Assembly (NCBI GenBank): GCA_026874595.1
Contig: CM049308.1
Location: 14,653,501-14,717,500 of the forward strand
Source of the DNA: Sipunculus nudus
Taxonomy: Eukaryota; Annelida; Sipuncula; Golfingiida; Sipunculidae
Direction of reading: 5' to 3'
DNA: 64,000 bases
Every line of letters begins with the position of its first letter. The first letter of the stretch is position 1. Made by a program: the position numbers and the translations under genes. The notes under the pieces are model-generated. The model saw only the letters and a list, made by a program, of their open reading frames with translations, searched no databases and was not told the origin of the DNA. Below are positions 5,466 to 40,700 of this stretch, piece after piece.

Positions 5466-8400
5466 ACAAGTGACCCATTGGTCATGACGCTCAGCTGTCT
5501 GGGAAGAGATTCGCAAAAGGAAATTTTATCATCTGAATGGTAGTATATACCCCTTCAACTGAAGCATCAAACAGATTAACCAACAGGCCAAGATTGTGTC
5601 TGTATTTATATATATATAATTTATATTTATATTTATATAATAGAGAAAAATAGCTTTAAAAGTAAACTTAAAAAAAAATACAGGTGGCTCCACCAGTCTG
5701 CAGAATCTAATAAAAACAGTTAATGGTCAATATTCATGCAAAGAATCATAGTGATCTCTACATTAGTTGTTCAGATACTTCAATTTTTGTATCAAATTTT
5801 CCATTATTCTGAGGGATACTTCGGAGTCCTATAACTTGAAGGATATGGGTAACAGAGACCTAATTTCAGGTTTCCACTGACGCTTTTAATGGGCCTCCTT
5901 GCAAGACAAGAATGAAGATTCTAGGTCAAGTTGTTACAATTTGTGCCACGTTAACAAATGACAACATCTTTAAAGGTTTCAAAAACATACAAAAAAATTC
6001 GTAAAAATTTAAAAAAAATAGAGGTGGCGAACCCAGTCTGCAGAAACTGATGGAAAACCTAATGATCAATATGTATGCCAAAAATCATGACCATCAGTGT
6101 TGTAGTTATTAAGATACTGCAGTTTTTGTATCAAATTTTTCTTTAATCTGGGGGGTATTTTGGAGCCATACAGCTTAAAGGATATGGGTAACAGAGACCT
6201 AATTTCAGGTTTCCAAGGAGACTTTTCATGGGTCTCCCTGTGTGTCAAGAATGAAGATTCTAGGACCAGTTGTTATGAATTGTGCCCTGTTAACAGATGT
6301 TCAAATTTTTAAAGGTCTCAAATATAGAGAAAACAATTCGTAATAATCGAAAAATACAGGTGGCGCCACCAGTCGGCAGAAACTGATGAAACATCTCTTG
6401 ATCAATGCGTATCCCAAAAATCATGACCATCAGTGTTGTAGTTATTGAGATGTTGCAGTTTGTTTTAATCAAATTTTTCATTATGCTGGGGGTAATTGGG
6501 AGCCCCACAGCCCAAAGGATATGGGTAACAGAGACCTTATTTCAGGTTTCCATGGAGACTTTTCATAGGCCCTTCAGTGTGTCAAGAATGAAGATTCTAG
6601 GTCCAGTCTTCACGATTTGTGTCCTGTTAACAGATGTTCACATTTGTAAAGGTCTAAAAAATAGAGAAAACAATTCGTAAAGAATCGAAAAATACAGGTG
6701 GCGCCACCAGTCTGCAGAAACTGATGAAACATCTCATGATCAATAGGTATGCCAAAAATCATGACCTGCAGTGATGTGGTTAATGAGATATTGAAGTTTT
6801 TGTATGAAATTTTTGACTATTCTAGGGGGTACTTTGGGACCCGATATCTCAAAGGATATGGGTAAGAGGGACCTAATTTCTGGTTTCCAAGAAGACTTTT
6901 CATAGGTCTCTTAGTGTGTCAAGAATGAAGATACTAGGTCCAGTCTTTACGATTTGTGCCCTGTTTACAAATGTTCACATTTTAAAGGTCTCAAAAATAG
7001 ATAAAACAATTCGTAAAAAATCGAAAAATACAGGTGGCGCCACCAGTCTGCAGGAACTGATGAAACATCTGATGATCAATATGTATGCCAAAAATCATGA
7101 CCTGCATAGATGTAGTTAATGAGATATTGAAGTTTTTGTATGAAATTTTTGACAATTCTAGGGGGTACTTTGGGGCCCAATAGCTCGAAGGATATGGGTA
7201 ACAGAGACCTAATTTCTTGTTTACATGTAGACTTTTCATAGGTCTCTTAGTGTGTCAAGAATGAAGATACTAGGTCCAGTCTTTACGATTTGTGCCCTGT
7301 TTACAAATGTTCACATTTTAAAGGTCTCAAAAATAGAGAAAACAATTCGTAAAAAATCGAAAAATACAGGTGGCGCCACCAGTCTGCAGGAACTGATGAA
7401 ACATCTGATGATCAATATGAATGCCAAAAATCATGACCTGCATAGATGTAGTTAATGAGATATTGAAGTTTTTGCATGAAATTTTTGACTATTCTAGGGG
7501 GTACTTTGGGACCCGATATCTCAAAGGATATGGGTAAGAGAGACCTAATTTCTGGTTTCTTAGGAGACTTTTCATAAGTCTCTTAATATGTCAAGAATGA
7601 AGATTCTAGGTCCAGTCTTTACAATTTGTGCCCTGTTAACAGATGTTTAAATTTTTAAAGGTATCAAAAATAGAGAAAACAATTCGTAAAGAATCGAAGA
7701 ATACAGGTGGCGCCACCAGTCTGCAGGAACTGATGAAACATCTGATGATCAATAGGTATGCATAAAATCATGACCTGCAATGATGTAGTTAATGAGATAT
7801 TGAAGTTTTTGTATGAAATTTTTGACTATTCTAGGGGGTACTTTGGGACCCGATATCTCAAAGGATATGGGTAAGAGAGACCTAATTTCTGGTTTCCAAG
7901 GAGACTTTTCATAAGTCTCTTAATATGTCAAGAATGAAGATTCTAGGTCCAGTCTTTACAATTTGTGCCCTGTTAACAGATGTTTAAATTTTTAAAGGTA
8001 TCAAAAATAGAGAAAACAATTCGTAAAGAATCGAAGAATACAGGTGGCGCCACCAGTCTGCAGGAACTGATGAAACATCTGATGATCAATAGGTATGCAT
8101 AAAATCATGACCTGCAATGATGTAGTTAATGAGATATTGAAGTTTTTGTATGAAATTTTTTACTATTCTAGGGGGTACTTTGGGGCCCCATAGCTCGAAG
8201 GATATGGGTAACAGAGACCTAATTTCTGGTTTCCATGTAGACTTTTCATAGGTCTCTTAGTGTGTCAAGAATGAAGATACTAGGTCCAGTCTTTACGATT
8301 TGTGCCCTGTTTACAAATGTTCACATTTTAAAGGTCTCAAAAATAGAGAAAACAATTCGTAAAAAATCGAAAAATACAGGTGGCGCCACCAGTCTGCAGG

Positions 8401-8748
8401 AACTGATGAAACATCTGATGATCAATATGTATGCCAAAAATCATGACCATCAGTGATGTAGTTAATGATGTATTGAAGTTTTTGTATGAAATTTTTGACT
8501 ATTCTGGGGGGTACTTAGGGGCCCCATAGCTCGAAGAATATGGGTAACAGAGACCTTATTTCAGGTTTCCAAGGAGATTTTTTTTTATGGACCTCTCAGA
8601 ATGTCAAGTTACAAGATTCTAGGTCCAGCGGTTACGATTTTTGCCTGGTTAACGGACAGACAGACGGACGGACAGACGGACAGACAGACGGACGACGGAC
8701 AAAGAGTGATCGCTATAGCTTAGATGACTTACAGTCAGCTGAGCTAAA
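5466..8748 (-). mobile_element. Helentron-like element with nine ~337-bp tandem repeats
   Basis: Read on the minus strand it begins TTAGCTCAGCTGACTGTAAG (at 8748) and ends with the inverted partner CAGCTGAGCGTCATGACC, a near-palindrome (TGACCNATGGGTCA type, 5471-5484) and ACTTGT (at 5466). This is the layout of Helentrons: asymmetrical terminal inverted repeats with a hairpin just inside the 3' end. The core is a tandem array of a 336-340-bp monomer. Just inside the head is a GTCCGTC-rich low-complexity run. It interrupts an older relative at 5245-9663. Confidence 0.78.
5681..8640 (-). repeat. ~337-bp tandem repeat array, nine monomers
   Basis: The marker CAGGTGGCGCCACCAGT or a variant starts at 5681, 6021, 6357, 6695, 7031, 7367, 7704, 8041 and 8377, giving steps of 336-340 bp. 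Most copies hold the perfect palindrome GGTGGCGCCACC. Monomers around 7565-8156 are almost identical, while 5681 and 6021 are diverged. Short reading frames that recur here (starts at 6916, 7252 and 8262) are repeats of one monomer and not genes. Confidence 0.93.
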
Positions 8749-9663
8749 AACATATTATCACACTTCAGGACTGCCTAATATCAAAACCACTTATCTGTTT
8801 TTCTTTCTTTTTACCATCAATATTCCCCTATCTAGTTTCTTTGTACATGTAAGGAATTAAGTCAGTATAACTAGAATTATAAAAGTTATAGGCCAACAGA
8901 TTATGCACTTTGTAAAAGTGTAGGAAAGATATTTACACACTTAACTTTATAAGTGTTGAAGCTAGAGACTTTTGTTCAGGTATATAAATTTATTTAATTA
9001 AGATTCAATTTGATACCATAAATTATATCTGAATTTAAAATTTTTTTAAAGTTATTAGCATTAATATAAAATCATTACCTTAAATTTTGTCCAACTTTGA
9101 CTATGGCACGTTTTTGTCATTTATAAAAAAAAATAATACATCTGTGTACATAATGTGATGTCACCTGACCAAATTAGCTATAGATTCTGATGCAATTTAG
9201 AATTGTGAATCAACTTAAATATTCAGATATATATGTTTGACTGTAAATGTATAGAAAAACTTTATAAACTTAAAAAATAAAATTGATGTAATGAAAAATG
9301 AGAATCTTATGTAAACATTCATTCATTATTCTTCTGCCTCAGTGGAATTGGAATTTTCTTTGTTTTTCAATCTATCTGCCTGTTTTTAAAAAGTTAATAA
9401 ATACAAATACTGTAAATAATTTATCAAAAAGTCTACGAATGATCATGGTAATAATATACATCTTATGTTCACAGACTTCACTTTTAACAAAAGGAAATAT
9501 ACTCGATTGGTCAAAATATTGTTTGCAATGATTTCATCATTAAAAACGAATCATGTCAATTAGCCATGGCCTATATTACCTTTTCCTCTTAGACTTTATC
9601 TCCTTTTGATATTTTAGATTTTTACCTTCAAAGTCAACTTACAGTTACCCATGGATCCCATGT

Positions 9664-12600
9664 TTATATCTGGTATGCACCAACCCAGTCAGGGACATTG
9701 ATGTTTTAATCACTGGAGGACTGGAGATGACAAGTTGTGTTAAAAGCACAACCAGGAGGAATTAGTGGCATACCATAGGGTTTTCAATACCTAGGATATT
9801 TTGCTGATAGGAAGGTGCCAATCTGGCACACCCAAAAAGGGAACCCATTCAAGAGAACCAGTGGGTAAAATTAAGTACCTTAAGTCTTAAAGAAGACACA
9901 GTCTTTTCCTTGTTAATAGTCTCTCTGGCCTTATTAGCTTTGGTTAGGTTAGGGCTGAAATGGGTATCAACTTTTGGCCTGAAGTCCTCAATAATCATTA
10001 CCTGACATGGGCCTGAGTACAGTTGCCATGGCAACAGTGTAAAGGTATAAATGGACATTTTTTTACCTGTGGAAAATATGTATAATTTTATTTTTTGAAT
10101 TCTAATTTTTTTTCAAGAAAGCAGGTATGTAATTATACATGTATATGTAATTGGTTTCTATGTAGCGTAGCAAAAAATTTCATATCAGACCTCTGTAAAA
10201 TGTACCAGTACAGGCACAATGCATTTGCACACATTGGCACTCGAAATAGTCCAAATTTTAAACTGGAATACTCTGCAAGTATTACCTAGACTCAAATACT
10301 CACTACTCCTTTCAGCCGAAGATAGGAAACTGTGAATGGATGATATGTAGCTGTTCCATCAATGATAACAAACTCTGTATTTATAGAAATCTAAAAATGA
10401 TTGTTGATTTGTAGGTGATATATTAAAGATTGGTATATACATTTGGCATAAATCAGCATCGTTACACTACCAAGCCTCTGGCAGCTTCCAGAGACCTTGA
10501 TTTAACGTGCTGTTCACATAAACCATTACCACATTTTCTTGATCAGACGCCGGGCCTTTAATAGTCGCCTGCCTTATTTAGTCGCCGGGGCAAAACATTG
10601 TCTCAGAAAAATAAACGCCGGCCTTAAATAGACGCCGGTCTTGTTCAGAGGTCGGGTGTATGAGTAGTTTCAATGTTTGCCGCCAAGTGTCTTTTCCCTG
10701 TCACTAAAACTGGTGCATTTACCGGTCAAATCGACCAGAGATTGTTGTGTAAATTTTGGTTTGTGTTTGTGATTATAATATGCTTAATTACTCTATAAAT
10801 CTTTCTTTTTTTCTTAAGTGCATTCCTGTTTCCAAAAGGGACACCAAATATTCCCGATTCCTCCATTATGATCAAAGTCGATCACCGATCATAGTAAATG
10901 CTTCACAAACATGCCAACCGTGAGGAGGCTAACACTATTACTGCTTTCAAGCTAAGTAAAAATATAACCGCTTGACACAAGCGGTATAACTTGGTACGAT
11001 GAGAGTCTACCACACGAATGCTTGAACAGAACTTTTCAAAATATGTTAGGGTACATATTTATTGTGTAGCATGGAGACACCAAATGATGGTGTCCTTGCT
11101 TTCATTTTGAAGCGCTTTTGAGTGCGTCCAAAATGTTACCAAAACAACGCTTCTGAGATTTTCTTAAAATTTATAAATAGTATTTGCTCTTGTCGACAAC
11201 CATACATTCAGTTGAATATTCACCGCAGTAAATGTCAGATACCAGTATGTACCAGGTCGGAAACGTTTGGATAGCTAAAGCAGTTAAAAGTGTCATGAAA
11301 ACGAATTACGCAGTGCCGTTATACGTACCAGCGTACCAAACCCCCATAATAGAAGAGCCCCCCCCCCCCCCCCCGTTTTCAGTAGGAAACAATTTGACCA
11401 ACTGCACGCGGTGTAAAAAAATGGAACAGCCACATGAAACCCCGGGGTACCTGGTTTCGAGAGGCCAGCGCGGATAGATTCTTGCGAACAGCTGCAAAAT
11501 ATCTTACTGTGATTCCCCGTAAATTATTATAATAATGCGTGATTATGGATATTATGGGTGTTCCATATCTCTATAGCATCTTCGGTTTTTTCGTAAACAC
11601 AATCCGTGTACCAACGATGTTTTCAATTGTGTCCTCAGGTCACAGGCCCTTGAAATCACCCTTAAAACATGTCTAAATGACTCCTATTTAGCCTTATGCT
11701 ACACAAAATAATATAAGCATAAGGCATGAAACGACTGACGGAGGACCCGAGTGACCTGCTGTATAAACTATCCAAATGGTTCCGTCGGACAAAAAAACTA
11801 ACTCGCGTTACGGTTCCTGGCCGCGTATAATTGGCTGTTTAATCAGGCTGAGCGGACAATGTTTGGCGGTCTTCCACTCCATGCAAGTCATCGTGGACCG
11901 TGCGGCTTCCGAGCACCATCACGGGATTGTCGACAGATCGGCGGCGCTCTTATTGGCCGGATATAAATAAAAATTAGATGTTTGAATCCAAAGAAAATAA
12001 AGAAGGTCATTTTAAAATGTTCCTCTGTTGAGTAGTCTTTTTGAACATGCTGATGATGGATTTGTAGTTTTTTTCTGTGTGCACTAATTTTATGTAGTTG
12101 ATTCCAGAGTTTTCAGAATAAAATTTTCATTTTTAAATCAGTTGGCTTATATTCAAACAAGACACACTCTGTAGAATGCAATTATCATTAAAAAGCAGGT
12201 CTGGCTTTTTGGAGAAATTTTGAAGAAATCTTTATGGTCATTGATAGGTCCAGCTAATTCTTCAATTATATATCAAACAAGTAATTTGCATTCTAACAGC
12301 CACAGGCATTCATTTATTTGCCCCATATTCCATGATACATTCATGCAAAAGTGACTGAATATTTGTGAATATTTCTTAATGATCTTCCTGGATACAGATT
12401 TAAACTAGAAATGTGCGTCCCAATGGATACATGCTTTCATCATGGGAGCACAAGTTTTAAAAGCACTCTGGACACACTGGACACTTTCACTCTGACGTGC
12501 TCGGGGATTTCCTGGGCAGGTGGCCAGGCCGCACTAACTAGGCAGGACCTGTGCATTCATTTATATTTTGGCCTACATTCCCAGGTTCATTTGTGCATAA

Positions 12601-12940
12601 GTGAATATACATTAGTGAATATTCCCTGATGATGCTCCAGATTACGGAGATGATGCTAGATCAACACCAAAATCTATTCGATTCTTCCTTAGCCCTTCCC
12701 TTAAATGGTTGCGTGAGTTATGTTGTGAACCATCACACACACACACACACACACATACACAAACACGCATGTGAAATGAACACATACCCTTCTGACTGAG
12801 TCAATACACTACAGATAAACTAGATGTACACTTTGCCAGAATACATCAATACATATACAGGGTTTCGTTAATTAATTTTTAAAAAAATTGGAATTCATCT
12901 TTACCAGGCTTACTGTGATGCTATTTTTACTATCATCCAG
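9664..12940 (+). other. Rest of arylsulfatase A-copy intron 1
   Basis: Bases 9680-10530 and 11990-12940 align with unit B (about 32270-33200 and 34475-35075). Bases 10531-11990 have no counterpart there. That insert begins with a GACGCCGG / AATAGTCGCC-type repeat (10548-10650), has a poly-C tract (11350-11374), and contains an 81-codon reading frame at 11232-11477 that I cannot tie to any family. A short (CA)n run lies near 12738-12753. Confidence 0.6.
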
Positions 12941-13090
12941 CTCGGCTGGCACAGAGGATCGGCATGATCGGTGGCCTCCATATTCTGCTTCCGAATACCC
13001 CTTATGGACTACCTCACTGGGAGATAACCATTCCCGAAGTCCTCAAGACTACAGGCTACACCACAGGGATAGTTGGGAAATGGCACCTAG
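12941..13090 (+). CDS. Arylsulfatase copy A, exon 2
   Basis: 150 bp, enters and leaves in phase 1. It encodes [11 protein letters not shown] through IVGKWHLG, where Lys and His of GKWHLG are conserved active-site residues. The acceptor is ATCCAG and the donor GTTTGT. It aligns with 35076-35225. Confidence 0.9.
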
Positions 13091-16000
13091 GTTTGTACCT
13101 GTTTTATCTTTCACATACTATTGTTCTGCTCACAACTGATTAAAGCTAGCTATTCACCTGCCGTATCTGTAGAATTTATGTGATATCTGGCAAGCTTTTG
13201 GTACATTTTAACACATGCAGGTATGTTCTGCTAGAAACGGTTCTTATAGTGCTTCTGTGATTGATGTACCGTATGAGCTTTTTTTTATCTGTAAGCTCCA
13301 AGTTAACATAGTACATGTGCCCATGTTGACAGAAAAAAAATCCACAGAGGTGGTTGGTTGCATATGTACAGCAGCTGAAATGTCACTAGTCGCAAAATTC
13401 TTTTTGCAAAACACTGGTTCATCTGATGTGCTGACAAATGTCTTTGATGAATGTGTTTGAATGATTATTTGGTGGGCTCCCCACATTTTATAAGCACATG
13501 GATATAAACAAAACGAACAGCCTATGTGCGGCGGGATTAGCGTTTTAGGACATTTTTCTATTAAAGGTTTAAGGAATTACCTGTTGCTTATAGACGTCAG
13601 ATTTTGGAATTGGCCCCTTTAAAAAAAATCACATTCTTCAATTTTATTGCAATCTTTCTGTGGGACTTCATCAACCAAAATTTTTGTTCAAATAATATAA
13701 GATGAAAAAAGCAAATATTCCATATACTTGCTTAAAGAAGCGTGGAAAAATTTTCAGACAGCTGTTGACAAAATAAAAGAGAAACATTTTGCCGCCATCG
13801 AAAATCGAGCAGATAAAGCAAGCAGTAATATCAGCACATGTGAACCAGAATAATAGTCAATTCACGACTCAATGCAGCCACAACAAAGAAGTTCTCAGAG
13901 GAAGATTTGTAAAACGTTATAGTGGTCCATCGATTGGAAAGAAATAGAAGACAAAAGACACAAGTACTGGGGGCTGCAGCTGGGATCCCTCTAGGTCGAG
14001 TCATCTCAACCGAGGAGATAATGAACTGCAGCTACAATCCCCCAAGGTCGACACCCGAGCGAGAGGCATCTCTGTATTGAGGCATCAAGAAAGGAACATA
14101 TTTTTATCGGACTATTTAGATCTATCATTCAAATATCGTCTGGAAGAACTTTCGGGGACTATGTCCATTCCAACCGTACATGTTTGATGACGTAAAAAGC
14201 CAGCTCTAGTACTAGTACATTCAGACCAGTATTTCTCACTTGGGTCAAGTACTTTTGAATGTTATTAGTGTGTTATGGATCATTTCCCTGGGAAAGAATA
14301 CCCGTTTCCTTACTGTCCCCTACTAAAAGCTAGCTCACAGAGCGCGATCTACCAACTAATAATGGTTATCAAACGATGTCAACAAGCGGTGCTTTCTTGC
14401 ATATTTCAGTTGGCTTATGATTAGTTCTCTGGGGTTGCAAGCCATATTAAAGTTATATATGAAGTATTTTATCATGAAAGCTTTAGATAAGATCAAACCT
14501 TAAGGTATCTAATTGATAAGTAAATCAATACAGTTCATTTACGTAAAAACCACTTATTATCACTCAATACTGGCTGACATTTTCCAGGTTTATGGCCCTC
14601 AAAAGATGTTTAATGCGGCAGGAAAATAGTTAGGAAATTTTGTCTCCATGTGTAATACGCACCAAGATTTTAGTTAAGATTTTATGAAGAAAAAATGTGA
14701 ATCATCTTTGGGGAAAGATGGTATGTGGCCATAAGGACAGGGGGTACTTCCTTTCAGATAAATCAAATACAATACCTGAGAAACATATTTTATATCATAC
14801 TGAGTTTACTTCACGGGATTAAATGCAATAATATAATAATACAATAACATAATACACCTTGGTTTGGTGATACCTTTTGAACACTTTGAAAATGTAGTCA
14901 TCTGAAATAAAGATTATTATCTCATCACTCAGATCATATGAAACTATTTTTTAGAATATATACTTCATATTTGTACCGGTAATCTGTAAAAGAACTCCAT
15001 TGTAGAAGAAGTAATATTTTATAAAGTAGAGTGTAAGCTGGTGATTCACAGTGTACAGGTAAACAGCGAGTTTACCTGTATTTGCAGGTACTAATGCCCA
15101 CAACAGCACAGATGGGACTTACTTGCCTCACACTCACGGATTTGATTACGTCGGCGAAATTCTACCACATTCACTAGCGTGGGACTGTGATACCAGCAAG
15201 GTAGGGTATTATGGGTACATTTTTAATTTATTTATTTTTAGGTAAATCCCTCCATGGCTTATAATGCTAGCTTAACTGAGTTGTACACCTGCAGAATCCC
15301 AATCCGGGTTCGGACTACCTGACAGGGCACACGCTTCCTTTCATTTATGTCCTGGTGTTAACCAGGCCCAGTGACTACTGTGCCTACAGGTTCTGGGTGT
15401 GTGATTGTCCCCATTGCTTGGTTATACCACCGAGGATCCTCTGAAAGATGCACTCATTTAGAAATGAAACATGGGTAAGGAGCATGGCCATTTAATAAAG
15501 CCTGCAGAGCACTCACCCTGAGTCGGACAAACTGTGAAAAAGCTCTCTGTTCCTGAGTGAAATTTAAACTCTCCCAGCTTTAACTCCTATGCTCGTCCCC
15601 ATAGACCACAGAAGCCATTTATATGGATATCTTTGTAAATGATTTAAATGAAATAAAGTTCTCTATCACTTTTTTCTCTTGTAGACATAAATAGTAAGTT
15701 TATGCTAAGCCTTTGATCAGAATTTTGTTTAAATCAACTTCATTAGCCAGAAGTGTAAGTTCACCTCTTTCAGTTTCAAAGTGATGATAATACCCTTTAT
15801 TCACTTATCCAGTAAAGTAGAGTCACACATTCTGTTACCATTTTAGAAGTGACATTGAATCATAATTCATAATAAGTTCATTTAGAAAATCTTTTATTCT
15901 ATGATAAGCGATAATATAAAGAAGTGAAACTCATACCAGCTTCTGTGGTTCAGGGTTAGAGCACAGCTTTCAAAACCAGGAGAAACATGAGTTAGAATCT

Positions 16001-19000
16001 CAGCTGAGGCAGTGAGATTTTTAAGTCGGCCCTTACTTAGGGTCAGTACTCTGCAGGTTTAAAGGGGAGATTGTGCGTAACAAATGTGTTACACTACGAG
16101 TGTGCCATGCACCCTTTTTGGGGTTCCTTGGTGTTATTACCAATCAGTAGTGATGACACACATCCCGGACCTGCTCGAGTGGTACACCGGCCCTGTGGTT
16201 GCCTCAAGGATAATAGAGTATTAAACCCGATGTCACACAGTCCAAAACTCTAATGTTCAACATAGTTGAGCTATCTTTAAAAAATGGAGGCGGTTACTTC
16301 CAACCCAAAAAAAGCTGAAAAAGTGAAACTCCACTGCAGACAGTTATAAGTCAGACCTGTGCATACATGGACTGTCTGATTCTTGGTTCTTACAAATCAA
16401 GTTTAAAATATCAACAGCTGCGCAACAAATACACCAACATTCCAAACACGATTTAAATCTCAATATCTTTCTGAAAAACTAAACAGAATATAGATAAATA
16501 TAAAGCTGGATACATCTGATCAAGGAGTATTTTTTTATTGTGAAGGAGGCTGCAGCCGGGTTTAGGAGAACTGTTAATTTGTGGAATTTAACATAATCGA
16601 CGACAGATAGTAGATCTGGTAATTGCTAGAAGTGTTAATATTGATATTTATTAAAAGGATTATGGATTAAATACAGTATTTGTGGTAAGAGAGTCTGATA
16701 AAGTTATAAAAATATCCACACCACTGAGGCTTAATTTAAAAAAAAATAGTTAGAGTGCTGCTTTGTCTTGATGATGCTTACAGTTTTGCTTGATAAACGT
16801 TGCATTTTATTTCATATATGGTACAGATTGGGATTTAAAAACATTATCAATTTACTGTCATAATTGAAAAAGGCTATATTTATTATCATTGGCAATGCTT
16901 GCATAATTATTGATTATCGTATCATTGATTCTTAATGTTCCCAGTAATAATATTGATTGTTTAACAGCTATCTATGCATAGAAGTTTTCTTTCATAGCTT
17001 ACTGTATTAATGCTTGTCAGAGCCATTAGTAATCATATAATCACTATATAGTTGTTATCCAAAGTGAAGGTTATCAGCCATAGGGATTTAGAGTATTTAA
17101 CAAAATCATACCGGGAATAATAGTATTGAGGGAATCAGGTATTTTATACATTTGAAATTGATTTTACTATATTCCTGTGATCTAATTTGAGCGTTCTGTT
17201 AAAATAACTTTCTGTTTCGTTTTGTTGTTTTTAAAGGTACACAAAAAACAAGCATCCACTCAAAGCTGTTACTTGTATAGAAACACCACCCTGGTGCAGC
17301 AACCAATACAGCTCGAGACACTGACAGACGCACTTCTTATGGACGCAAAGAGTTTTGTGTATAACGACACAGACAAACCCTTCTTCTTGTTTATGTCAAT
17401 GCCCCAGACACATACCCCTATGTTCAACCATCCTCGATTCAAAGGAACATCCAAGAGAGGTACGTGCATTATCCTGTATATGCCTCAGATCAATACACAT
17501 GTTAAACTGCACAATAACATCCAAATGAATTATTTTAATGTTGGAATTTGATATATACTGGAAGCCAGTTGTTCATTTTTATCAAAATGTCACCCTTTGG
17601 TTTTGTGATACACTTTTCTATTTTTTTTTAGATATGGGTATATATACATTAGTGAAATGAATATGGGATATATCAGGGATATAAATTAAAAAAAGGTAAA
17701 ATGTATCTGTATAAAATATGACTGTACCAGGAATTTCATGTCAAAATATTTCTCTGTCTTGTATCTGCTGAAACTGTTATTTATTTGGGTAAAGCCTAAA
17801 AACATATTCACTGCATACACTTGAGAATTGAGGGTTAAAATGCTCCACTGTCTTAACTAGCAACCCAGGATCGATCCCCAGTGTGGCTTTGGGAGTGGGT
17901 TGTAGTTGCCCGACCACGGCCAGTGGTTTTCTTCAGATTTTTCGGTTTCCTCTACCCATACAGACTACCGAACACCATCATCGGAGTCTTGGAGAGGGCC
18001 TTGATTAGTTATAATAGCTTTTTGTACAATCCATGTAAAATAAAAAATCACAAATCTCAAATATATGACGGGAAAACTTTTCCAACATATTTGATCTTCC
18101 TAACCCTGCAGCTTTGAACACCTATATCCACTTTTGTAGGAGCCTATGGCGACCAGATTAATGAGATGAACTGGGCCATTGGAGAAATGCGGGAGCTGCT
18201 TGAGAATGAAAACCTGACCAAGAACACCCTGGTATTATTTGTTTCAGACCATGGACCTCACAAAGAGATTTGTGCTGAAGGTGGAACAACAGGGGAATTT
18301 AGAGGTAGGACAGTCAAAATCAGGATAATTGTTAACATGTTATGTTAACAAAGAGAGAATCTACAAAGGGTATTTTTCCTTTTAGCTGAAAATTCATTAA
18401 GCCATTGGAATTCAGTGTTCTTACTACAGAGGGTATTTCTATTTCGTTTCAGTTAAAAAATCATCAAGCCATTAGCATTCAGTATTCTTACCACAGAGGG
18501 TCTGTCTGTTTTCTTTCAGCTGAAAAATGATTTAGCTATTGGCATTCAATATTTTTTCTACCAATTTTGCTTACTTGAAATAAACAGGACCATCCTGATA
18601 TTGTTGTTTTTGTTATACCAGTGAATAAACTCATTTTGGCCATTGACATTTTCAAGAATTTCCTATATATTGTTAACTTGGTTCAGTTGATAAAGTTGGA
18701 ATTATAAGAAGAAGCAATTTATTATAACAATATCATTGATCATTGAAATTTTATTTGGATCCGTTTGAAGAAAATATTATCCTGACACTAAAAATGCTTT
18801 TTGATAGAATAGCATTATATTTGATAAAACTGTTTATAGTTGGCAAATATTTAAATATCCTCGCATGCTCATGACAACTTTTTTATTAACCAGGAGGGAA
18901 GCTAAATTTTTTCGAAGGGGGAATCAGGGTACCTGCTATCGCCTGGTGGCCTGGGACCATCCCAGGGGGTCATGTATCTACAGCCGTGGCCGGATTAATT

Positions 19001-19519
19001 GACGTCATGCCGACCTTTGCACACCTAGCTGGTGTCCCCATGCCTCAGGACCGTGTCATCGATGGCAGATCCTTTGCTGATTTATTGCTCGACACTGACA
19101 AACACTTACATAAAGATATCCATGATGTACTCTACTTTTATGAAGAAGACATCCTGGTCGCAATGAGATACAAACAATACAAGATTCATTTTCAGTCATT
19201 ACGTGAAACTGATTACACAAATATATGGAAACAGAATTGTGATGGATATATACCAAGGAAATATGTTTACTTAAATGACTATTGGCCAGGATATGTTGTA
19301 AATGACCCGGTTGTTATATACGACCTCCATGTGGACCCTGCAGAACAGTTTCCATTAGATGCTACAAAACATGCAGATTTGGTCGAGAAAGTCAAAGCAA
19401 TTGCTGAAATCCATGAAAGGAACTTGGGCATTACATCATTCAGACCACTAGCGTTTGATCATTTTACAAGCAGGGTGACCCCATGTTGTAACCCTCCTTA
19501 CTGTGTATGTGGTTTGTGA
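12941..19519 (+). CDS. Arylsulfatase (arylsulfatase A / steryl-sulfatase-like), copy A, exons 2-6
   Basis: The enzyme would hydrolyse sulfate esters in the lysosome or outside the cell. Exons are 12941-13090, 15088-15200, 17237-17459, 18140-18304 and 18894-19519 (150, 113, 223, 165 and 626 bp), each with AG/GT borders and the same phases as copy B. Together they code for the residues equivalent to 87-511 of copy B and end [11 protein letters not shown]. Visible features are GKWHLG, the THTP histidine, VSDHGP (metal ligand), and [14 protein letters not shown], a second sulfatase signature. The exon with the signal peptide and the catalytic CTPSR motif is not in the window. It should lie left of 4798, but the satellite and retrotransposon are there, so it is either beyond the left edge or lost. 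No stops or frameshifts are seen in the five exons. Confidence 0.88.
13091..15087 (+). other. Arylsulfatase copy A intron 2
   Basis: Bases 13091-13480 and 14720-15087 match the shorter intron 2 of copy B (35226-35952). The middle, about 13480-14720, is specific to this copy and shows no recognisable coding or terminal-repeat structure. Confidence 0.6.
15088..15200 (+). CDS. Arylsulfatase copy A, exon 3
   Basis: 113 bp, enters in phase 1 and leaves in phase 0. It encodes [19 protein letters not shown] and then a segment ending WDCDTSK. An N-glycosylation sequon (NST) is present. The acceptor is TTGCAG and the donor GTAGGG. Confidence 0.9.
15201..17236 (+). other. Arylsulfatase copy A intron 3
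   Basis: About 15201-15600 aligns with two separated pieces of copy B intron 3 (36066-36300 and 41451-41600), giving the empty site of the large element there. A tRNA-like SINE follows (15935-16260). Bases 16900-17236 align with 42140-42470. The rest is AT-rich without recognisable features. Confidence 0.65.
15935..16260 (+). mobile_element. tRNA-derived SINE-like sequence
   Basis: GTGGTTCAGGGTTAGAGCAC (about 15950) resembles a polymerase III A box, and GAGTTAGAATCTC (about 15990) resembles a B box at tRNA-like spacing. A GC-richer body follows. It is absent from the paralogous intron, so it looks like an insertion. Boundaries are approximate. Confidence 0.45.
17237..17459 (+). CDS. Arylsulfatase copy A, exon 4
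   Basis: 223 bp, enters in phase 0 and leaves in phase 1. It encodes [18 protein letters not shown] through a segment with MPQTHTPMF, whose His matches a substrate-binding His of the family, and ends GTSKRG. It lacks the hydrophobic hairpin found here in vertebrate steryl-sulfatase. Confidence 0.9.
17815..18010 (+). mobile_element. SINE relic in intron 4 (shared with copy B)
   Basis: A B-box-like GGATCGATCC is followed by GTGGTTTTCTTCAGATTTTT and CGGTTTCCTCTACCCA, which resembles the conserved central domain of metazoan SINEs. The same relic is at 43085-43280, so it was in intron 4 before the gene duplicated. A 78-codon reading frame through it is not a gene. Confidence 0.55.
18140..18304 (+). 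CDS. Arylsulfatase copy A, exon 5
   Basis: 165 bp, phase 1 in and out. It encodes [20 protein letters not shown] through [13 protein letters not shown] and GGTTGEFR. Asp in SDHGP is the calcium ligand. His takes the place of the Asn of arylsulfatase A or Gln of steryl-sulfatase. Only one, synonymous, base differs from copy B. Confidence 0.92.
18305..18893 (+). other. Arylsulfatase copy A intron 5
   Basis: AT-rich intron with a short internal triplicated motif (ATTCAGT...TTACAGAGGGT, about 18405-18510). Copy B has two of these units (43670-43745). No gene is seen. Confidence 0.6.
18894..19519 (+). CDS. Arylsulfatase copy A, exon 6 (last)
   Basis: 626 bp, entering in phase 1. It completes GGK and encodes [17 protein letters not shown], the C-terminal domain with DPAEQFPL (a usual sulfatase phrase), and the Cys-rich end [11 protein letters not shown]. 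The stop is 19517-19519. About 17 of 208 residues differ from copy B. Confidence 0.92.
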
Positions 19520-19566
19520 TAATTTTGCAAATGTGCATTTTACCACTTTGTGAGTGTTTCTTTATA

Positions 19567-19572
19567 AATAAA
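19567..19572 (+). terminator. Poly(A) signal of arylsulfatase copy A
   Basis: AATAAA lies 48 bases after the stop codon in a conserved 3' UTR. The equivalent site in copy B is at 44758-44767. Confidence 0.75.
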
Positions 19573-22500: not shown

Positions 22501-22617
22501 TAATAGTTATTTTAAAAGAATCTGGATGATATTAATTTTGTTTGTCCTTACGTTGGTTACCACGTACTTATTTTAAATATTGTAAATTCAAGATTTTTTA
22601 TTGTTTTTTTTTTCAGA
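19573..22617. other. 3' flank of copy A, no clear gene
   Basis: Collinear with unit B (about 48340-50440) except where that copy has insertions. A short motif GATCGCGCC(T/C)GGT with an ATGTT.ATG context occurs at about 19915-19950 and again at 21105-21135, and near 49725-49760 in unit B. A 54-codon frame at 20991-21155 is described separately. Confidence 0.55.
20991..21155 (+). CDS. Short ORF with basic N-terminus and hydrophobic segment (uncertain)
   Basis: 54 codons starting MATRNKEKKHDTRKTGRKRK, then a hydrophobic run (LMSALFMFMALIAPGASFL), a signal-anchor-like profile. In the second duplication unit the start region is recognisable at about 49602 but small indels and a stop break the frame. 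That decay argues against a functional gene. It could be a lost first exon or chance. I do not recognise it. Confidence 0.18.
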   Translation: MATRNKEKKHDTRKTGRKRKKLICVVVRGGFQLMSALFMFMALIAPGASFLSLV

Positions 22618-23052: not shown

Positions 23053-23640
23053 ATTATCTCAGGAAAGAGGGGTCTGACCTGCGGTGACTTGATAGCTTGT
23101 GATGTTTACATCCAAATGTAAACAAATTAATGTTGGTTTGTATAAGAGAATACTGTATGTCCTAACAATAATTGTGTGATGCTTGCCTCCTTTGTGATGA
23201 TATCTCAGGAAAGGGAGGTTTAACAGGGGGACCTGATAGCTTGTGAAGTTCACATCCATTTGTGATGTTTGCTATGCATGAAAGACTATTACTGTATGGT
23301 CATTCAATAAAATTGTGATGTTTGCATCCATTTGTGATGGCATCTGAGGAAAGAGGGGTCCGGCTGCGGTGACTTGGTAGCTTGTGATGTTTACTTCCAT
23401 TTCTGATGTTTGTTATGCATAAAACACTGCCGTTTGGTCATTCAATAAAATTGTGATGTTTGCATCCATTTGTGATGGTATCTTAGAAAAGGGGGGTCTG
23501 ACTGCGGTGACTTGGTAGCTTGTGATGTTAAATCCATTTGTGATGTTTGCTATGCATAAAAGGCTACTGTATGGTCATTCAGTAAAATGGTGATGTTTGC
23601 ATCCATTTGTGATGGCATCTGAGACATGAGAGGGTCCTGC
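23053..23640. repeat. Minisatellite, about 140-bp period, four to five copies
   Basis: Repeating blocks begin with ATCTCAGGAAAGAGGGGTC or a variant at about 23055, 23200, 23340, 23480 and 23615. Within each, TTTGTGATGTTTGC-like phrases recur. It starts where homology to unit B stops. Confidence 0.85.
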
Positions 23641-25320: not shown

Positions 25321-25321
25321 T

Positions 25322-27362
25322 TTAGCTCAGCTGACTGTAAGTCATCTGAGCTTTAGCGATCACTCTTTGTCCGTCGTCCGTCCGGTCATCCGGCCGTCTG
25401 TCCGTTAACAAGGCACAAATCGTGACCACTGGACCTGGAATCATCTCACTTTACATCCGGAGAGGTCCATGAAAAATCTCCTTGGAAACTTGGAATTAGG
25501 TCTCTGTTACCCATATCCTTTTTCTCTATTTTTGAGACCTTTAAAAATGTGGACATCTGTTAACAGGGCACAAATCATAAAGACTGGACCTAGAATCTTC
25601 ATTCTTAACATTCTGAGAGACCTATAAAAAGTCTACATTGAAACCAGAAATAGGTCTCTGTTACCCATATTCTTCGAGCTATGGGGCCCCAAAGTACCCC
25701 GCAGAATAGTGAAAAATTTCATACAAAAACTTCAATATCTCATTAACTACATCACTGATGGTCATGATTTTTGGCATACATATTGATCATGAGATGTTCC
25801 ATCAGTTCCTGCAGACTGGTGGTGCCACCTGTATTTTTTTATTTTTTACGAATTTTTTTCTCTATTTTTGAGACCTTTAAAAATGTGGACATCTGTTAAC
25901 AAGGCACAAATCGTAAAGACTGGATCTGGAATCTTCATTCTTGACATTCTGAGAGACCTATGAAAAGTTTCCATGGAAACCAGAAATTAGGTCTCTGTTA
26001 CCCATATCCTTCGAGCTATGGGGCCCCAAAGTCCCCCCAGAATTGTCAAAAATTTCATTAAAAAAAACAATATCTCATTAACTGATGGTCATGATTATTG
26101 ACATACATATTGATCATGAGATGTTTCATCAGTTTCTGCAGACTGGTGGCGCCACCTGTATTTTTCAAAATTTTACAATTTTTTTCTCTATTTTTGAGAC
26201 CTTTGCGGATCTAGTTATCTGTCAACAGGGTTCAAATTGTAACGACTGGACCTAGAATCTTCATCCTTGACACGCAGGATTACCCATGAAAAGTCTCCAT
26301 GGACACCTGAAATTAGGTTTCTGTTACCCATATCCTGTGAGCTATGGCACTCCATAGTACAGCTCAGAATAATGAAAAATTTGATACAAAAGTTGAAGTA
26401 TCTGAACAACTAATGCAGAGATCACCATAATTGTTTGTATGGATATTGATCATGGAGTTTTTCATCAGTTTCTGCAGCCTGGTGGCACCACATATATTTG
26501 TTCGGACTTTTTTCGAATTTTTTCTCTATTTTTGAGACCTTTAGAGATATGAACATCTGTTAACATGGCACAACTCATAACAACTGGACCTAGAATCTTC
26601 ATTCTTTACACACAGGGAGACCCATGAAAAAATCTCCATGGTAACCTGAAATTAGGTCTCTGTTACCCATATCCATTAAGCTGTATGGCTCCAAAATACC
26701 CCCCAGAATAATGAAAAATTTGATACAAAAACTCCAGTATCTCAATAACTACAACACTGATGCTCATGATTTTTGGCATACATATTGATCATGACATGTT
26801 TTATCAGTTTTAGCAGACTGGATATGCCACCTCTATTTTTTTCAAATTTTTACGAATTATTTTCTCTTTTTTTTGAGACCTTTAAAGATATGGTTATCTG
26901 TCAACAGGGTACATATCGTAACATCTGGACCTAGAATCTTCATTCTTGTCATGCAAGGAGGTCCATGAAAAGTGTCTGTGGAAACCTGAAATTAGGTCTC
27001 TGTTACCCATATTCTTCAAGCAATAGGACTCCAAAGTATCCCTCAGAATAATGGAAAATTTGATACAAAAGCTGAAGTATCTGAACAACTAATCCAGAGA
27101 CCACCATGCTTCTTTGCATGGATATTGACCATTAAGTGTTTTTATTAGTTTCTGCAGACTGGTGGAGCCACCTGTATTTTTTTTAAAGTTTACGCATTTT
27201 TCTCTATTTTTGAGATATATTAATACAGACACAATCTCATCCTGTTGGTTAATATGTTTGATGCTTCAGTTGAATGATTATATACTACCATTCAGATGAT
27301 AAGATTTCCTTTTGCAAATCTCTTCCCAGTCAGCTGAGCGTCATGACCCATGGGTCACTTGT
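25322..27362 (+). mobile_element. Helentron-like element with five ~335-bp repeats
   Basis: Head TTAGCTCAGCTGACTGTAAG. The inverted partner near the 3' end is GTCAGCTGAGC (27329-27339), an exact inverse of GCTCAGCTGAC at 25325-25335. The perfect palindrome TGACCCATGGGTCA (27344-27357) and CTTGT close the element. The core has monomers marked at about 25811, 26140, 26480, 26815 and 27157. It lies in a T-rich target. Same family as 5466-8748 and 36892-39123. Confidence 0.82.
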
Positions 27363-28469: not shown

Positions 28470-28532
28470 TTAACACTAATCACTATCCCAATTAGCACGT
28501 TTTCCACTTAAAAAAAAAACATTTTTTAATTT

Positions 28533-30471
28533 TTAGCTCAGCTGACTATAATTCATCTGAGCTATACTGGTGGTCCATTGTCCGTCGTCCGTCCGTTAAC
28601 AGGGCACGTTTTGAAACCATCGGACCTACGATTCTAAAATTTTGCATACCAGTAGATGTCCCCAAAATCTCCTACCATACCGAAAATTGGGTCATTAGGA
28701 CATCGTTCCTTCGAGATATAATTATTAAGGAAAAACCTCTGTTTTCCATAAAAAAAAACCATTGTTACACTTCAAGGCTGCCTAATATCAAAACCACTGA
28801 TCTGTTTTTGATTGTATCCAGTATTCATATTCTTCCATACATTTTCTACAAACATACAAAAAATTAGATCAGTGGTGGGTATTATTTTGAAGTTAAGGGC
28901 CAAAATATAATGCAATTTTTAAAAAATCGGGAAATATATTACTCACCTAACATGAGAATTGCTGAAGCTAGAGACTTTTTTTTCAGGAATATAACTTTAT
29001 TTAATCAAGATTCAATTGTTTACCCAAAATTAGATATGAATTTTGCAAATTTTTCAAGTTATTAGCATAAATAAAAAATCAATACCTTAAATTTAGTCCA
29101 ACTTTGGCATTGGCACTTTTTAACCTGTAAGCACTGTTGATTTAATTTTCACAGCATATATACATAAAGATTTAATCTTTTAAAATCTGAAATTTCAAAG
29201 GAATTGATTGAAAAGAGTAGCTTTTATTCAAGTTTTCATACACCATGTCAAGTGTTGTTTACATCTAGCCCACCTAGTAGTACAGCCTTCACTTGCATTA
29301 TGTAACCCACCCAAGGCAGCTTTCCTTGGCTCAGCATAGCGACTACCAGCAGGCTTCCCCTCTGCCCTGCACTCCCCCCCCCCCAGATGGTGCATAAACT
29401 AGATGAATGTTATTATTTTCTGTATTTGATTCATTCTTATTCTAGGCTATGCTACATTTTAGATTTTGTATTGTACCACAAGGGTTACAATGATTAAAGT
29501 GCACATTTAATTGTGTCCACAAAGTGGTGTATTGCTATGAAAGTGTGGATGTTCATCAGATAAGTAACTCCTTACTTCAGAAGAGTAAAAAATTTACCAG
29601 GTGTGAAATTGACTATTAATTCCAGTAATTAATTAAAGCTGAGATAGTAATTAGCACAATGATATTGTTTGTCCCTCATTCAACCAACAGTGTGTATACT
29701 TTATTTGAAAAGATGTTTTTATTTTATCAAATTTACTGAATCTTTTATTTTATCTCGATGAATAGAATTAAGCATGTACTGAAAACTCCAATGTGCAAAA
29801 CTTTTTAATAGTGATTCAAGGAATAATCTTGTAGATGCCATGTTGTGGCATTATTTCCTTTTAAATTCAGCTTAAACATTTGTGATTTAAAAATAATAAA
29901 ATATATGTGTATGCATAATATGACCCAATATGAGCTACACTCTGGATATATAATGATTGCAACTTTGGCAACATTCTAATATTTTAACTTATTTTCAGTT
30001 TTTTTTTACTCTGGATATATAATGATTGCAACTTTTGCAACAATTCTAATATTTTTTCACTAATATTTTCATTTTTTTTTTATTAAAAATTTATAAACTT
30101 GTAAATAAAAAAAATGATTCAGATAAAAACTTTTAATGGAAAAAAGGATATGCTAAAAAAATAGGCTTATATATAAACATAAATGCATTATTCCCTTGAA
30201 ATTGAAATAAAGGTATTAGTTCATCTGTAAATTTCATATGCATCACAGTATCTCAAAACTTTTACTGTTTTTCTTCATGACAGTCTTGTCAGAGTATTAG
30301 TTTGCAATCATATATTTAGAACTTTACTATAATCAAGTAGGAGGGCCCCTTTCCTCTTAGCTTCTCATATTCTTATATAAATGAAAAACATTACAATAGA
30401 ATATTTTGCATATTTTGCATTTGCAAAAATTTCAAATTTCAGCTGAGCGCCGTGACCCATGGGTCCCTTGT
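28533..30471 (+). mobile_element. Helentron-like element, uninterrupted copy
   Basis: Head TTAGCTCAGCTGACTATAAT, tail CAGCTGAGCGCCGTGACCCA then TGGGTCCCTTGT. It lacks the 335-bp array and has a unique AT-rich body. Its body provides the empty-site sequence for the nested insertions at 5466 and 36892. A short internal duplication of TCTGGATATATAATGATTGC lies at about 29940-30050. It has no coding capacity. Confidence 0.72.
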
Positions 30472-34700: not shown

Positions 34701-37700
34701 ACTGACAAGGCAGGACCTGTGGATTCATTTATTTTTTGGCCTTCATTCCAAGGTTCATTTGTGCATAAGTGAATAAACATTAGTGAATATTCCCTGATGA
34801 TGCTCCAGATTCTGGAGATGATGCTGGATCAACACCAAAATCTATTCAATCCTCCTTAGCCCTTCCCTGAAATGCCTTGAAATTACATAAGATTCCATTC
34901 ATGATTGCATGAGTTATATTGTGAACCATCACACAAACAAACAAACTATAGATAAACTAGATGTACACTTTGCTAGTCACATCAATATATAAATACAGGG
35001 ATTTGTTAGTTAATTAAAAAACCTGGAATAAATGTTTACAAGGCCTTCTGTGATGTTATAATTGTTATCATACAGCTCGGCTGGCACAGAGGATCGGGAT
35101 GATCGGTGGCCTCCATATTCTGCTCCAGTATACCCCTTATGGACTACCTCACTGGGAGATTACCATCCCTGAAGTCCTCAAGACTGCTGGCTACACCACA
35201 GGGATAGTTGGAAAATGGCACCTAGGTTTGTACCTGTGTTATCACCCACATACTATTGTTCTGCTCACAACTTATTAAAGCTAGCTATTCACCTGCCATA
35301 TCTGTAGAATTTATGTGATATCTGGCAAGCTTTTGGTACATATTAACACATGCAGGTATGTTCTGCTAGAAAAGATTCTTAAAGCACCTCTGTGATTGTC
35401 ATATGAGCATTTTACCTTTAAGCTGTTAGTAAACATGGTACATTTGCCTATGTTGACAAACAGAAAGTCCATTAATCATGTAACCATGGCTGGTTGCATG
35501 TATGCAGCAGTTGAAACATCACCAGTGCAAAATTCCATTTCCAAAACACTGGTTTATCTGATGCATACACACATATGGAGTGTTACCTTAAACTGTGACC
35601 ACAGTCCATGTCACCATACTGATCGGGGGTACCTTCTTTCAGATAAATCAGATACAATACCTGAGAAACATATTTTTATTTGATACTGAGTTTACAAGAT
35701 TAAATGCAAGAACAAACAGAATACACCTTTGTTTGGTGATAACTTGTAAACACTTTGAATTTGTAGTGAGCTGAAATGGAGATTAATATCTCATCACTCA
35801 GATCATATGAAAGATTTGACAATTTTATAAGATATATACTTGATATATATTTTTAATCTGTAAAAGCACTCCAGTAATATTCTATTAAGTATGGTGTAAG
35901 CTGGTGATTCACATTGTGTACAGGTTTTCAGCGAGCTCACCTGTATTTGCAGGTACTAATGCCCACAACAGCTCAGATGGGACATACCTGCCTCATACTC
36001 AGGGATTTGATTATGTTGGCCACATTCTACCTCATTCACTGGTGTGGGACTGTGATACAAGCAAGGTAAGTCTGTTGTTCCAAATATAGATATCTCAATA
36101 TCTTTAATTATTTTTTGTAGGTAACTGCCTCCATTGTTTAATGCTAGCTTAACTAAGTATGTACATCAGCAGGATTCCATTCCGGTTCTGGACTACCTGA
36201 CAGGGCACTTGCACATGCTTTCTTTCATTTATGTCCTGATGGTAACCAGGCCTGGTGACAATTGCACCTGCAGGCCCTGGGTGTGTAATAGTTCCCATTG
36301 TTAGCTCAGCTGGCTATAAGTCATCTGAGATATAGTCGTGGTCCATGGTCCGTTGTCCTTCCATCCATCTGTCTGTCTGTCGTCTATTAGACTTGCATGT
36401 TTTGAAACCGTTAGACCTATAAATAAAAAAATTCAACATACTGTTAGATCACCTACCAAACTGAAAACTGGGTCACTGAAACATCTTTCCTTTGAGAAAT
36501 TAAGGAAAAACCTCAAAATTTCCTTTAAAAACCTTTTATCACACTTTAGGACTGCCTAATATCAAAACCACATATCTGTTTTTCTTAAAATTTACCAGGA
36601 GTATTCTCCAATATATTTCCCATAAACATGCCAGAATGAAGACTATTAAGTGTAATATTTATAAGTTATTGGCTTGAACATATTGGACTTTGTAAAAAAT
36701 CAGGAAAAATATTTGCTCACTTAACATAAAAATTTTTTTTAAGCTAGAGACTTTTTTCCAAGTATATAACTTTGTTTAATTAAGATTCCATTGTATACCC
36801 AAAATAAGATCTGAATTTCGTTAATATATTAAGTAATTAGCATAAAAAACCAGAACCTTAAATTTATCCAAACTTTGACCATGGCACTTTTTTAGCTCAG
36901 CTGACTGTAAGTCATCTGAGCTATAGCGATCACTCTTTGTCCTTCTTCCGTCCGTCTGTCCGTTAACCAGGAACAAATTGTAACTGCTAGACCTAGAATC
37001 CTGTAACTTGAAATTCTGAGAGGTCCATGAAAAATCTCCTTGGAAACCAGAAATTAGGTCTCTGTTACCCATATCCTTCGAGCTATGGGGCCCCAAAGTA
37101 CCCCCCCAGAATAGTCAAAAATTTCATACAAAAACTTCAATATCTCATTAACTACATCACTGGTGGTCATGATTTTACACATGCATATTGATCATGGGAT
37201 GTTCCATCAGTTCCTGCAGACTGGTGGCACCACCTGTATTTTTCGCTTTTTTATGATTTTTTTTCTCCATTTTTGAGACCTTTAAAAATGTGAACATCTG
37301 ATAACAGGACACAAATCATAAAGACTGGACCTAGAATCTTAATTCTTGACACACTAAGAGACCTATGAAAAGTCTCCATGGAAACCAGAAATTAGGTCTC
37401 TGTTACCAATATCCTTTGAGCTATGGGGCCCCAAACTACGCCCCCCCCCCCCCCAGAATAGTAAAAAATTTCATACAAAAACTTCAATATCTCATTAACT
37501 ACCTCACTGATGGTCATAATTTTTTGCATTCATATTGATCATGAGATGTTTCATCAGTTTCGCAGACTGGTGGCGCCACCTGTATTTTTCGATTTTTTAC
37601 AAATTGTTTTCTCTATTTTTGAGACCTTTAAAACTGTGAACATCTGTTTACAGGGCACAAATCGTAAAGACTGAATCTAGAATCTTCATTCTCAAAACAG

Positions 37701-40700
37701 TGAGAGACCTATGAAAAGTCTCCATGGAAACCTGAAATAAGGTCTCTGTTACCCATATCCTTTGAGCTGTGGGGCTCCTAATTACCCCCCAGGATAATGG
37801 AAAATTTGATAAAAACAAACTGCAACATCTCAATAACTACAACACTGATGGTTATGATTTTTGGCATACATATTGATCAAGAGGTCTTCCATCAGTTCTT
37901 GCAGACTGGTGGTGCCACCTGTATTTTTTCAAATTTTTACCATTTTATTTGATCTATTTTTGAGACTTTTAAGGATGTAGTTATCTGTCAACAGGGTACA
38001 AATCATAACGACTGGACCTAGAATATTCATTCTTGGCACACAGGGAGACCCATGAAAAGTCTACACTGAAACCTGAAATAAGGTCTCTGTTGCCCATATC
38101 CTTTGAGCTATGGCACTCCAAAATACCCCCCAGAATAATGAAAAATTTGATACAAAAATTGCAGTATCTCAATAACTACAACACTGATGGTCATAATTTT
38201 TCGCATACATATGGATCATGAGGTGTTCCATCAGTTTCTGTAGACTGGGTGCGCCACCTCTATTTTTTTAAAATTTTTACTAATTTTTTTTCTCTATTTT
38301 TGAGACCTTTAAAGATGTGGTTATCTGTCAACAGGGTACATATCGTAACATCTGGACCTAGAATCTTCATTCTTGTCATGCAAGGAGGCCCATGAAAAGT
38401 GTCAGTGGAAACCTGAAATTAGGTCTCTGTTTCCCATATCCTTCAAGCTATAGGACTCCAGAGTATCCCTCAGAATAATGGACAATTTGATACAAAAGCT
38501 GAAGTATCTGAACACTTAATGCAGAGATCACCATGATTCTTTTCATGGATATTGATTATGGAGTGTTTCATCAGTTTCTGCTGACTGGTGGTACCACCTG
38601 TATTTTATTCAATTTTTTGCATTTTTTCTCTATTTTTGAGACCTTTAAGGATGCTGTCATCTGTTAACATGGCACAAATTGTAACAACAGGATCTAGAAT
38701 CTTCAATCTTGTCATGCAAGGAGGCCCATGAAAAGTGTCTGTGGAAACCTGAAATTAGGTCTCTGTTACCCATATCCTTCAAGCTATAGGACTCTGAAGT
38801 TTCCCTCAGAATAATGGATTTTATACAAAAGCAGAAGTATCTGAACAACTAATGCAGAGATCACCATGATTCCTTGCATGGATATTTACCATTCAGTGTT
38901 TTTATTAGTTTTTGCAGACTGGTGGAGCCATCTGTATTTTTTTTAAAGTTTACACATTTTTTCTCTATTTTTGAGATATATATGTACAGACACAATCTTG
39001 GCCTGTTGGTTAATCTGTTTGATGCTTCAGTTGAATGGGTATATACTACCATTCAGATGATAAAATTTCCTTTTGCGAATCTCTTCCAAGTCAGCAGAGC
39101 GTCATGACCCATGGGTCACTTGTTCCTGTGAGTAATGCTGATTTAATTTTCACAGCATGTAAACATACATATTTAATTTGTTTAACTCTGAAATTTGAAA
39201 ATAAAAGCTTGAAAATTAGGGTAGTTATTTAATTTTTTCTTGAGGCTCTATTGTAGTCACTTGCTTTGTCATGATGCAGGCAATTCACTCCTGGTCACTG
39301 GAAGAAAGCTTTGCCCGAGGACTATTGTTCATATGAATAACGCTTGCTTTCAGTGAGGGATTTGACCCACGTGCGTGGTCAGTAAAAGAGAAAAACACTT
39401 GTTTCTCACTTTATGAAATGGAGAGTTCAACCCAGTAGGATTAATGACAAAACCTAATTCAAGGTCCCAATTTCAGGAACAGGCGTGGGCTGGGGTGGAG
39501 TGGTATCTGGGGTTAAAGGCCTCAAAATTTGTCTGATACGATGAAAAAAAAAAACATTGCGGTGGTTGAAAATGAATACGGACCCTCTGCATAGAGTCCT
39601 GTTGGGTCTGCTTCTGTTACTTACGAGGTATGCATATATATGTTTCTTTCTTCAGGAACAGTTTCCTTGCAACGTACATTAAATAAATCTTTCATGTGTG
39701 CCTCACATCAACCTAATCTTTATACGTCCACTGAGAGAATCCAGTCAAATATCATTGAAAACCTGAATGCCCCTGCGTTTCATTCCGGTTTGCAATGTCA
39801 ACACCATCACTGGCCAGGTCATCAAGGTAAACATACCCGGGTATAAATTTCTTGCCACGAGGACAGAACCACAAAATAAATGTTAAAAATATTGGAGCGA
39901 CTGCAGGATCACTCACACACTGTCTCCACCAGATTATGAGTTTATACAGACGGACGGTATGATGTTAAGGATTCATGTTATTTAAAAGTAAGTGGTAAAA
40001 TTAAGATACAAGCAGCTGTACATAGAATTGTTTTCTGTTCACAGAAGTGTTGTGCCTCAGAGAGGTGGGTGAGTTATTCTGCAGTCATGCCAAAATGTTT
40101 ATACAAATCTTATGGAGACAGTTTCCCCCTGAAAACCTATATTTTCTGTTAACTTTTAGAATAAAAAAAATGAGCCAACATTTCACATCTCAGTTAATAA
40201 ATCTCCCCATGCCCAGTAATAAGCCCGGTGTACCAGGTCTATCAGCTAGTTATTCATATAAGCCTTGTAAATATAACTTTCATATGTTGTATGTGTATGG
40301 ATTTAAGCCATTAAAGTCAGAAATTTGAAAGCAACTTATATATTCAGTTGTGTAATTTTGCAGATGTTAATCTTTAAATAATTTGATATATTAAAAAAAA
40401 GAAATAATTGAAACTTCATATATATTATCAGCTTTGTTGACCAGTCTGTTTGTCCTTTTTTAAATATTGAGTTTTTGTGAATGAACTTTTTTATCCTGTG
40501 AACATTGTTGAAATAATTAAAAATCTTATGTATATACACTATTACAAGCAAGTTTGTCAAATTTCCCGCTTTGGGCTGTTGGGGCTCTTTCATGCTTGAT
40601 TAGCAACCAAAATTATGACATAAAGAGAAAATCGTGGGGGCACATGAAAACTTAAACAGATGCACTATGACTTGTTGAGACATCTGCAGGCAAACCTTTA

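Follow-up and report, generated by a model that had tools for sequence, protein, structure and literature searches.

A Helentron-like HINE family with ordered tandem arrays and a nested HINE in Sipunculus nudus

A HINE family, here called HINE-I, was characterized in the genome of Sipunculus nudus. Its copies very probably form one family that is moved in trans by Helentron protein and inherits its tandem arrays, and in which a composite with a second element, HINE-II, has multiplied. The family is large and ordinary in kind. Its particulars are the ordered arrays and a nested HINE that spread within its carrier.

The window is a 64,000-nucleotide stretch of the S. nudus assembly GCA_026874595.1 (contig CM049308.1, positions 14,653,501–14,717,500), and coordinates below are positions within it. 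Three HINE-I copies of the simple form are present: copy 1 at 5466..8748 on the minus strand, and copies 2 and 3 at 25322..27362 and 36892..39123 on the plus strand. The head TTAGCTCAGCTGAC is exact in all three (8734–8747, minus; 25322, plus; 36892, plus) and at 28533 in a relative, element B. Allowing ≤2 mismatches, it has 8 matches in the window against 0.25 expected. The palindrome TGACCCATGGGTCA lies five bases from the 3′ end of HINE-I. It is exact in copies 2 (27344–27357) and 3 (39105–39118), carries a single mismatch in copy 1 (5471–5484), and with ≤2 mismatches has 5 matches in the window against 0.25 expected. The end CTTGT of copy 1 occupies 5466–5470. Arrays with a unit of about 337 bp lie at 5674–8653, 25519–27215 and 37025–38976. 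The 5′ subTIR is GCTCAGCTGAC, and its complement GTCAGCTGAGC stands upstream of the 3′ palindrome. This partner is exact in copy 2 only, and reads GACAGCTGAGC in copy 1 and GTCAGCAGAGC in copy 3, with one mismatch each. The first 29 bases of HINE-I are predicted to fold into one hairpin (−9.8 kcal/mol, DNA parameters) with the subTIR in its first arm. A tetranucleotide microsatellite (GTCC/GTCT tract) follows directly behind the head. The window has 23 stop-to-stop open reading frames of ≥120 aa, and none lies inside the three copies.

The initial annotation of this DNA had described three copies of one family at these positions, and the head, palindrome, CTTGT end and ~337-bp array are all there, far above chance. 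Its statement that the copies share a subterminal partner and a palindrome before CTTGT was slightly too strong, given the single mismatches in copies 1 and 3 for the partner and in copy 1 for the palindrome. It had also given nine, five and six monomers. These figures agree with Tandem Repeats Finder (TRF) counts of 8.8, 5.1 and 5.8 units of 336–340 bp but take in partial units; counted by anchor, copies 1, 2 and 3 have 8, 4 and 5 full monomers plus partials. Array length, which the annotation proposed to compare between copies, does differ. The 5′ hairpin, the microsatellite and the nesting of copies 1 and 3 in larger relatives are additions to that description.

Ends of HINE-I type are abundant in the genome (1.43 Gb, 153 contigs). 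The 3′ palindrome occurs at 10,844 exact places, and the reversed control at 3. A longer tail, GTCAGCTGAGC-(0-6)-TGACCCATGGGTCACTTGT, occurs at 4,382 exact places (2,177 + 2,205), with 0 for the control. Searches of IMG/VR viral contigs with the HINE-I head and tail gave 0 matches each. The family was sampled by fetching 20 of the first 24 tails listed, each with 10 kb of surrounding sequence (loci named L0xx). A head was found upstream of the tail within the fetched stretch in 15/20 loci at ≤7 mismatches, and was not found within about 8 kb at that threshold in the other 5/20. At some loci, such as L016, the nearest head is part of a nested element.

Insertion sites were read from relatives and paralogues on the plus strand of the window. 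Element A (5245..~9663) has the same head type and a decayed 3′ end, placed by eye, and is interrupted by copy 1. Element C (36301..41450) ends in the tail TGACCCATGGGTCCCTTGT and is interrupted by copy 3. Element B (28533..30471) has the same tail and serves as the empty-site reference for both copies: B and C are uninterrupted at the position matching copy 1, and B at that matching copy 3. Element C itself is inserted in one half of a tandem segmental duplication, and the paralogue of its insertion site in the other half (CCCATTGCTTGGTTATACC, 15410..15434) is uninterrupted. The duplication is collinear over 4798–23053 and 31782–56423, and each half contains a sulfatase C-terminal exon (18890–19519 and 44087–44716). 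Repeats of about 153 bp, rich in TGTC, lie at 3853–4737 and 40847–41107, with an inverted 83% match within element C.

None of the three paralogous empty sites (copy 1, copy 3 and element C) revealed a fixed-length target duplication; only Ts are ambiguous. Among 41 distinct tails, a set that takes in type B and C relatives, CTTG is followed by T in 41/41 and then by a second T in 40/41. Among 35 distinct heads, T precedes AGCTC at positions −5 to −1 in 34, 34, 30, 35 and 33 cases. The run stops sharply after these five bases, and position −6 has no excess, with T in 8/35. This absence is not predicted by a pure poly-T target and counts against the preferred explanation. The T5 ahead of the head may be the element's own, or it may be a measured target.

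The HINE features found are subterminal inverted repeats near both ends (~11–15 bp in HINEs generally), an inverted repeat after the 5′ subTIR, a microsatellite with central tandem repeats, a 3′ palindrome, and T-rich insertion without target duplication. The copies hold no open reading frame of ≥120 aa, copy number is very high, and autonomous Helentrons are present in the genome. Together these observations support the HINE/Helentron biology suggested in the initial annotation, and the three empty sites and the invariant T after CTTG bear out its T-rich targets without long target duplication.

Monomer order was surveyed in the sampled loci and the window. Twenty-one arrays have ≥2 full monomers, and 17 are complete at both sides. 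None exceeds 8 full monomers, so the sample gives no sign of the satellite seeding suggested in the initial annotation. Classes were labelled after monomers 1, 7 and 8 of copy 1, so copy 1 fits the order by construction. The first monomer is of class 1 in 17/17 complete arrays; the last is of class 8 in 14/17 and is not of the 3′ class in 3/17. An order this extreme appeared in 0 of 20,000 within-array shuffles. Identity between arrays is 90.4% for first monomers and 86.9% for last monomers. Within arrays it is 88.5% for the first two monomers and 81.6% for the last two. The same class order in separate arrays indicates that arrays are inherited with their order. Array length varies mainly by the number of class-1 units, which is six in copy 1 and two in copy 3, for example. 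Units 2 and 3 of copy 1 are 98% identical, which marks a duplication that was local and recent. The 337-bp monomer contains no half-length repeat, with a best self-match of about 33–34%.

The last 337-bp monomer is interrupted ahead of the common tail in 11 of the 20 sampled copies, counted by the 3′ junction, and the 5′ hairpin side of the interrupting block is also present in 10/11 of these composites. Six other copies are uninterrupted like those of the window, and three have different interiors. In the window copies the matching site is an unbroken T8–T9 run, and copy 3, which is uninterrupted there, was counted as simple. The interrupting HINE-II block in L032 is 1,171 bp long with 3.0 units of 280 bp. 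It starts with the hairpin GTATCCGCCAAAACGAAGTTTTGCGGATAC and ends in GATTTTGGCAGATAC..TTCTAG before T; the 3′ motif in other copies is GGCGGATAC, the complement of the block start. A full-length HINE-II copy (86.6%) lies between Ts in L018, at a different position of a 337-bp monomer, and at L018:1116 and L020:544 the HINE-II 3′ end stands in different flanks, with T as the next base in both cases. HINE-II is therefore an independent element. A separate array at 51294–53979 of the window has about 9 units of 288 bp (AGGTCAAGGTCACAGGAC...) that are roughly 90% alike.

The exact 28-base junction from HINE-I monomer to HINE-II start occurs at 956 places (489 + 467; control 0), which suggests that the composite multiplied as a unit. 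Composite tails have a mean identity of 97.1% (93.3–100, 55 pairs), and simple-copy tails one of 89.7% (72.0–97.3, 36 pairs), lowered by the badly aligning L029. The tail variant ACTAAATC is found in 10/11 composites (the exception is L023), and ACACAATC in 8/9 simple tails. These data are read as a single nested HINE-II insertion followed by multiplication of the composite. A partial literature search, mostly of titles, found no report of nested HINEs spreading as a unit. L016 adds a third nesting level: within a composite copy, an A/B-type element occupies a T5 of the second array. The right flank of this A/B-type element is ~9 bases longer than the uninterrupted repeats, and the site is therefore not clean.

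Autonomous Helentrons are represented in the genome by at least 143 matches to PF14214 among the 150 of 195 candidates that were scored; the open frames reach 2,426 aa. Ten of 12 fetched Helentron loci encode mutually similar proteins. One Helentron, pieced together from L036 and L045, encodes DUF6570, OTU (PF02338), Helitron_like_N (PF14214), PIF1 (PF05970) and Exo_endo_phos (PF03372) domains. It thus combines Rep and a helicase with a C-terminal AP endonuclease, the Helentron hallmark, with the OTU domain that often accompanies them; OTU, Rep, PIF1 helicase and AP endonuclease are the domain set described for Helentrons in PMC4067079. The HINE-I tail (≤5 substitutions) and subTIR (≤1) are absent from the 7,501 bp on the 3′ side of this intact Helentron (L045). 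The search turned up no Rep/helicase gene flanked by both HINE-I ends, the 3′ side being readable in that one Helentron only. This single readable side lacks the HINE-I tail, so a Helentron partner of HINE-I is putative. The protein of this Helentron, F1, had no match better than E 3.2 in the window and L001–L032, and no coding remnant of it was found there. At 1089–3119 the window also contains the remains of a broken retrotransposon, which match RNase H-like and integrase core domains.

Canonical Helitrons have 5′ TC and 3′ CTRR ends and insert between A and T. Assignment of the family to this group would account for the rolling-circle hallmarks, namely the 3′ hairpin and the absence of target duplication, and the CTAG end of HINE-II fits CTRR. 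HINE-I, however, has subTIRs and ends in CTTGT between Ts, and the readable autonomous elements carry the Helentron OTU and endonuclease domains. A canonical Helitron is thus very unlikely and was rejected on the CTRR end and the A/T site. A cut-and-paste, MITE-like family with terminal inverted repeats (TIRs) that makes target duplications and has tandem repeats inside would likewise show inverted repeats close to its two ends and a very high copy number, and the oyster element Pearl was at first named a MITE (as recounted in PMC7492417). In HINE-I the 3′ inverted repeat is subterminal with a palindrome after it, and T always follows the end. The TIR/MITE reading was rejected for want of a fixed-length duplication at the three empty sites, and we regard it as exceedingly improbable.

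Each copy might instead have captured its satellite array separately, or the arrays might be ordinary satellites with end-like neighbours by chance. Array length does differ among copies, and some arrays at sampled loci have no nearby ends of HINE-I type. Separate capture would lose the monomer class order, which is constant across copies, and both ends stand in fixed relation to the array; we consider separate origins highly improbable. Two-array copies could also arise by recombination between elements with common flanks; PMC7492417 considers this possibility for elements of the oyster. The stretch GGTGGCGCCACCTGTA, present in both monomer types, offers possible homology for such an event. 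Against it, the HINE-II block has complete ends of its own, its site in simple copies is an uninterrupted T8, and the same block is found elsewhere between Ts. Recombination is accordingly an improbable origin of the composites, and nested insertion is preferred.

Under the preferred explanation, HINE-I would be a non-autonomous Helentron mobilized in trans by the Rep/helicase/endonuclease protein of a Helentron. The 5′ signals for transposition would be the head, the subTIR in its hairpin and the T-run in front, and the 3′ signals the subTIR partner, the palindrome and CTTG followed by TT. Copies would enter T-rich sites and make no target duplication. The ~337-bp array would be an inherited internal part that moves along with the element, and its length would shift as units, mainly those of the head-side class, are added or lost. 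One lineage would have received HINE-II, with its own hairpin head, ~280-bp array and TTCTAG end, in the T-run of the last monomer, and the HINE-I/HINE-II composite would have multiplied afterwards. The data show the anatomy, copy number, empty sites, monomer order, recurring composite junction and presence of autonomous Helentrons; rolling-circle replication, the choice of partner Helentron and the mode of unit gain are inferred. More speculatively, and in our view less likely than not, the transposition cycle itself could set array length and content: head-side units would be gained and lost while the tail-side order is frozen, foreign HINEs in internal T-runs would be adopted and spread with their carrier, and the family would be a series of nested, co-mobilized arrays. 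The ordered monomer classes allow one to ask on which side arrays grow.

In bivalves and other animals, tandem-core HINEs are believed to disperse satellite-like DNA. HINE-I resembles DINE-1 and HINE-Mo, as described by Thomas et al. 2014 (PMC4067079), in its subTIRs, 3′ palindrome, T-rich sites, lack of target modification, very high copy number and non-coding sequence. It belongs to another lineage, and only for DINE-1 and HINE-Mo have partners with near-identical ends been found. The bivalve elements Pearl, DTC84 and MgE (as cited in PMC7492417) likewise have short central arrays between HINE-type ends, although Pearl repeats are about 160 bp against ~337 bp here, and the likeness is one of description. 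Arrays associated with Helitrons, and insertions of one element into another, are described in PMC8268682 and PMC12628747. Cg_HINE of Crassostrea gigas, by the account in PMC7492417, has the same sequence of parts (5′ subTIR, inverted repeat, microsatellite, central tandem repeats, 3′ subTIR, palindrome), occupies oligo-T sites without target duplication, and includes elements with two successive arrays. Most Cg_HINE monomers are 140–180 bp, against ~337 and ~280 bp here, and this likeness too is by description. As in S. nudus, the autonomous Helentrons of the oyster could not be related to its HINEs, and that account leaves open which autonomous element moves them. It also leaves the origin of two arrays in one element undecided, between recombination and a captured junction. 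In S. nudus the second array is part of a HINE that has ends of its own and lies nested in the first. For one family, the two-array origin thus gains a concrete and countable answer: a HINE in the T-run of another HINE, with at least 956 exact junctions after multiplication.
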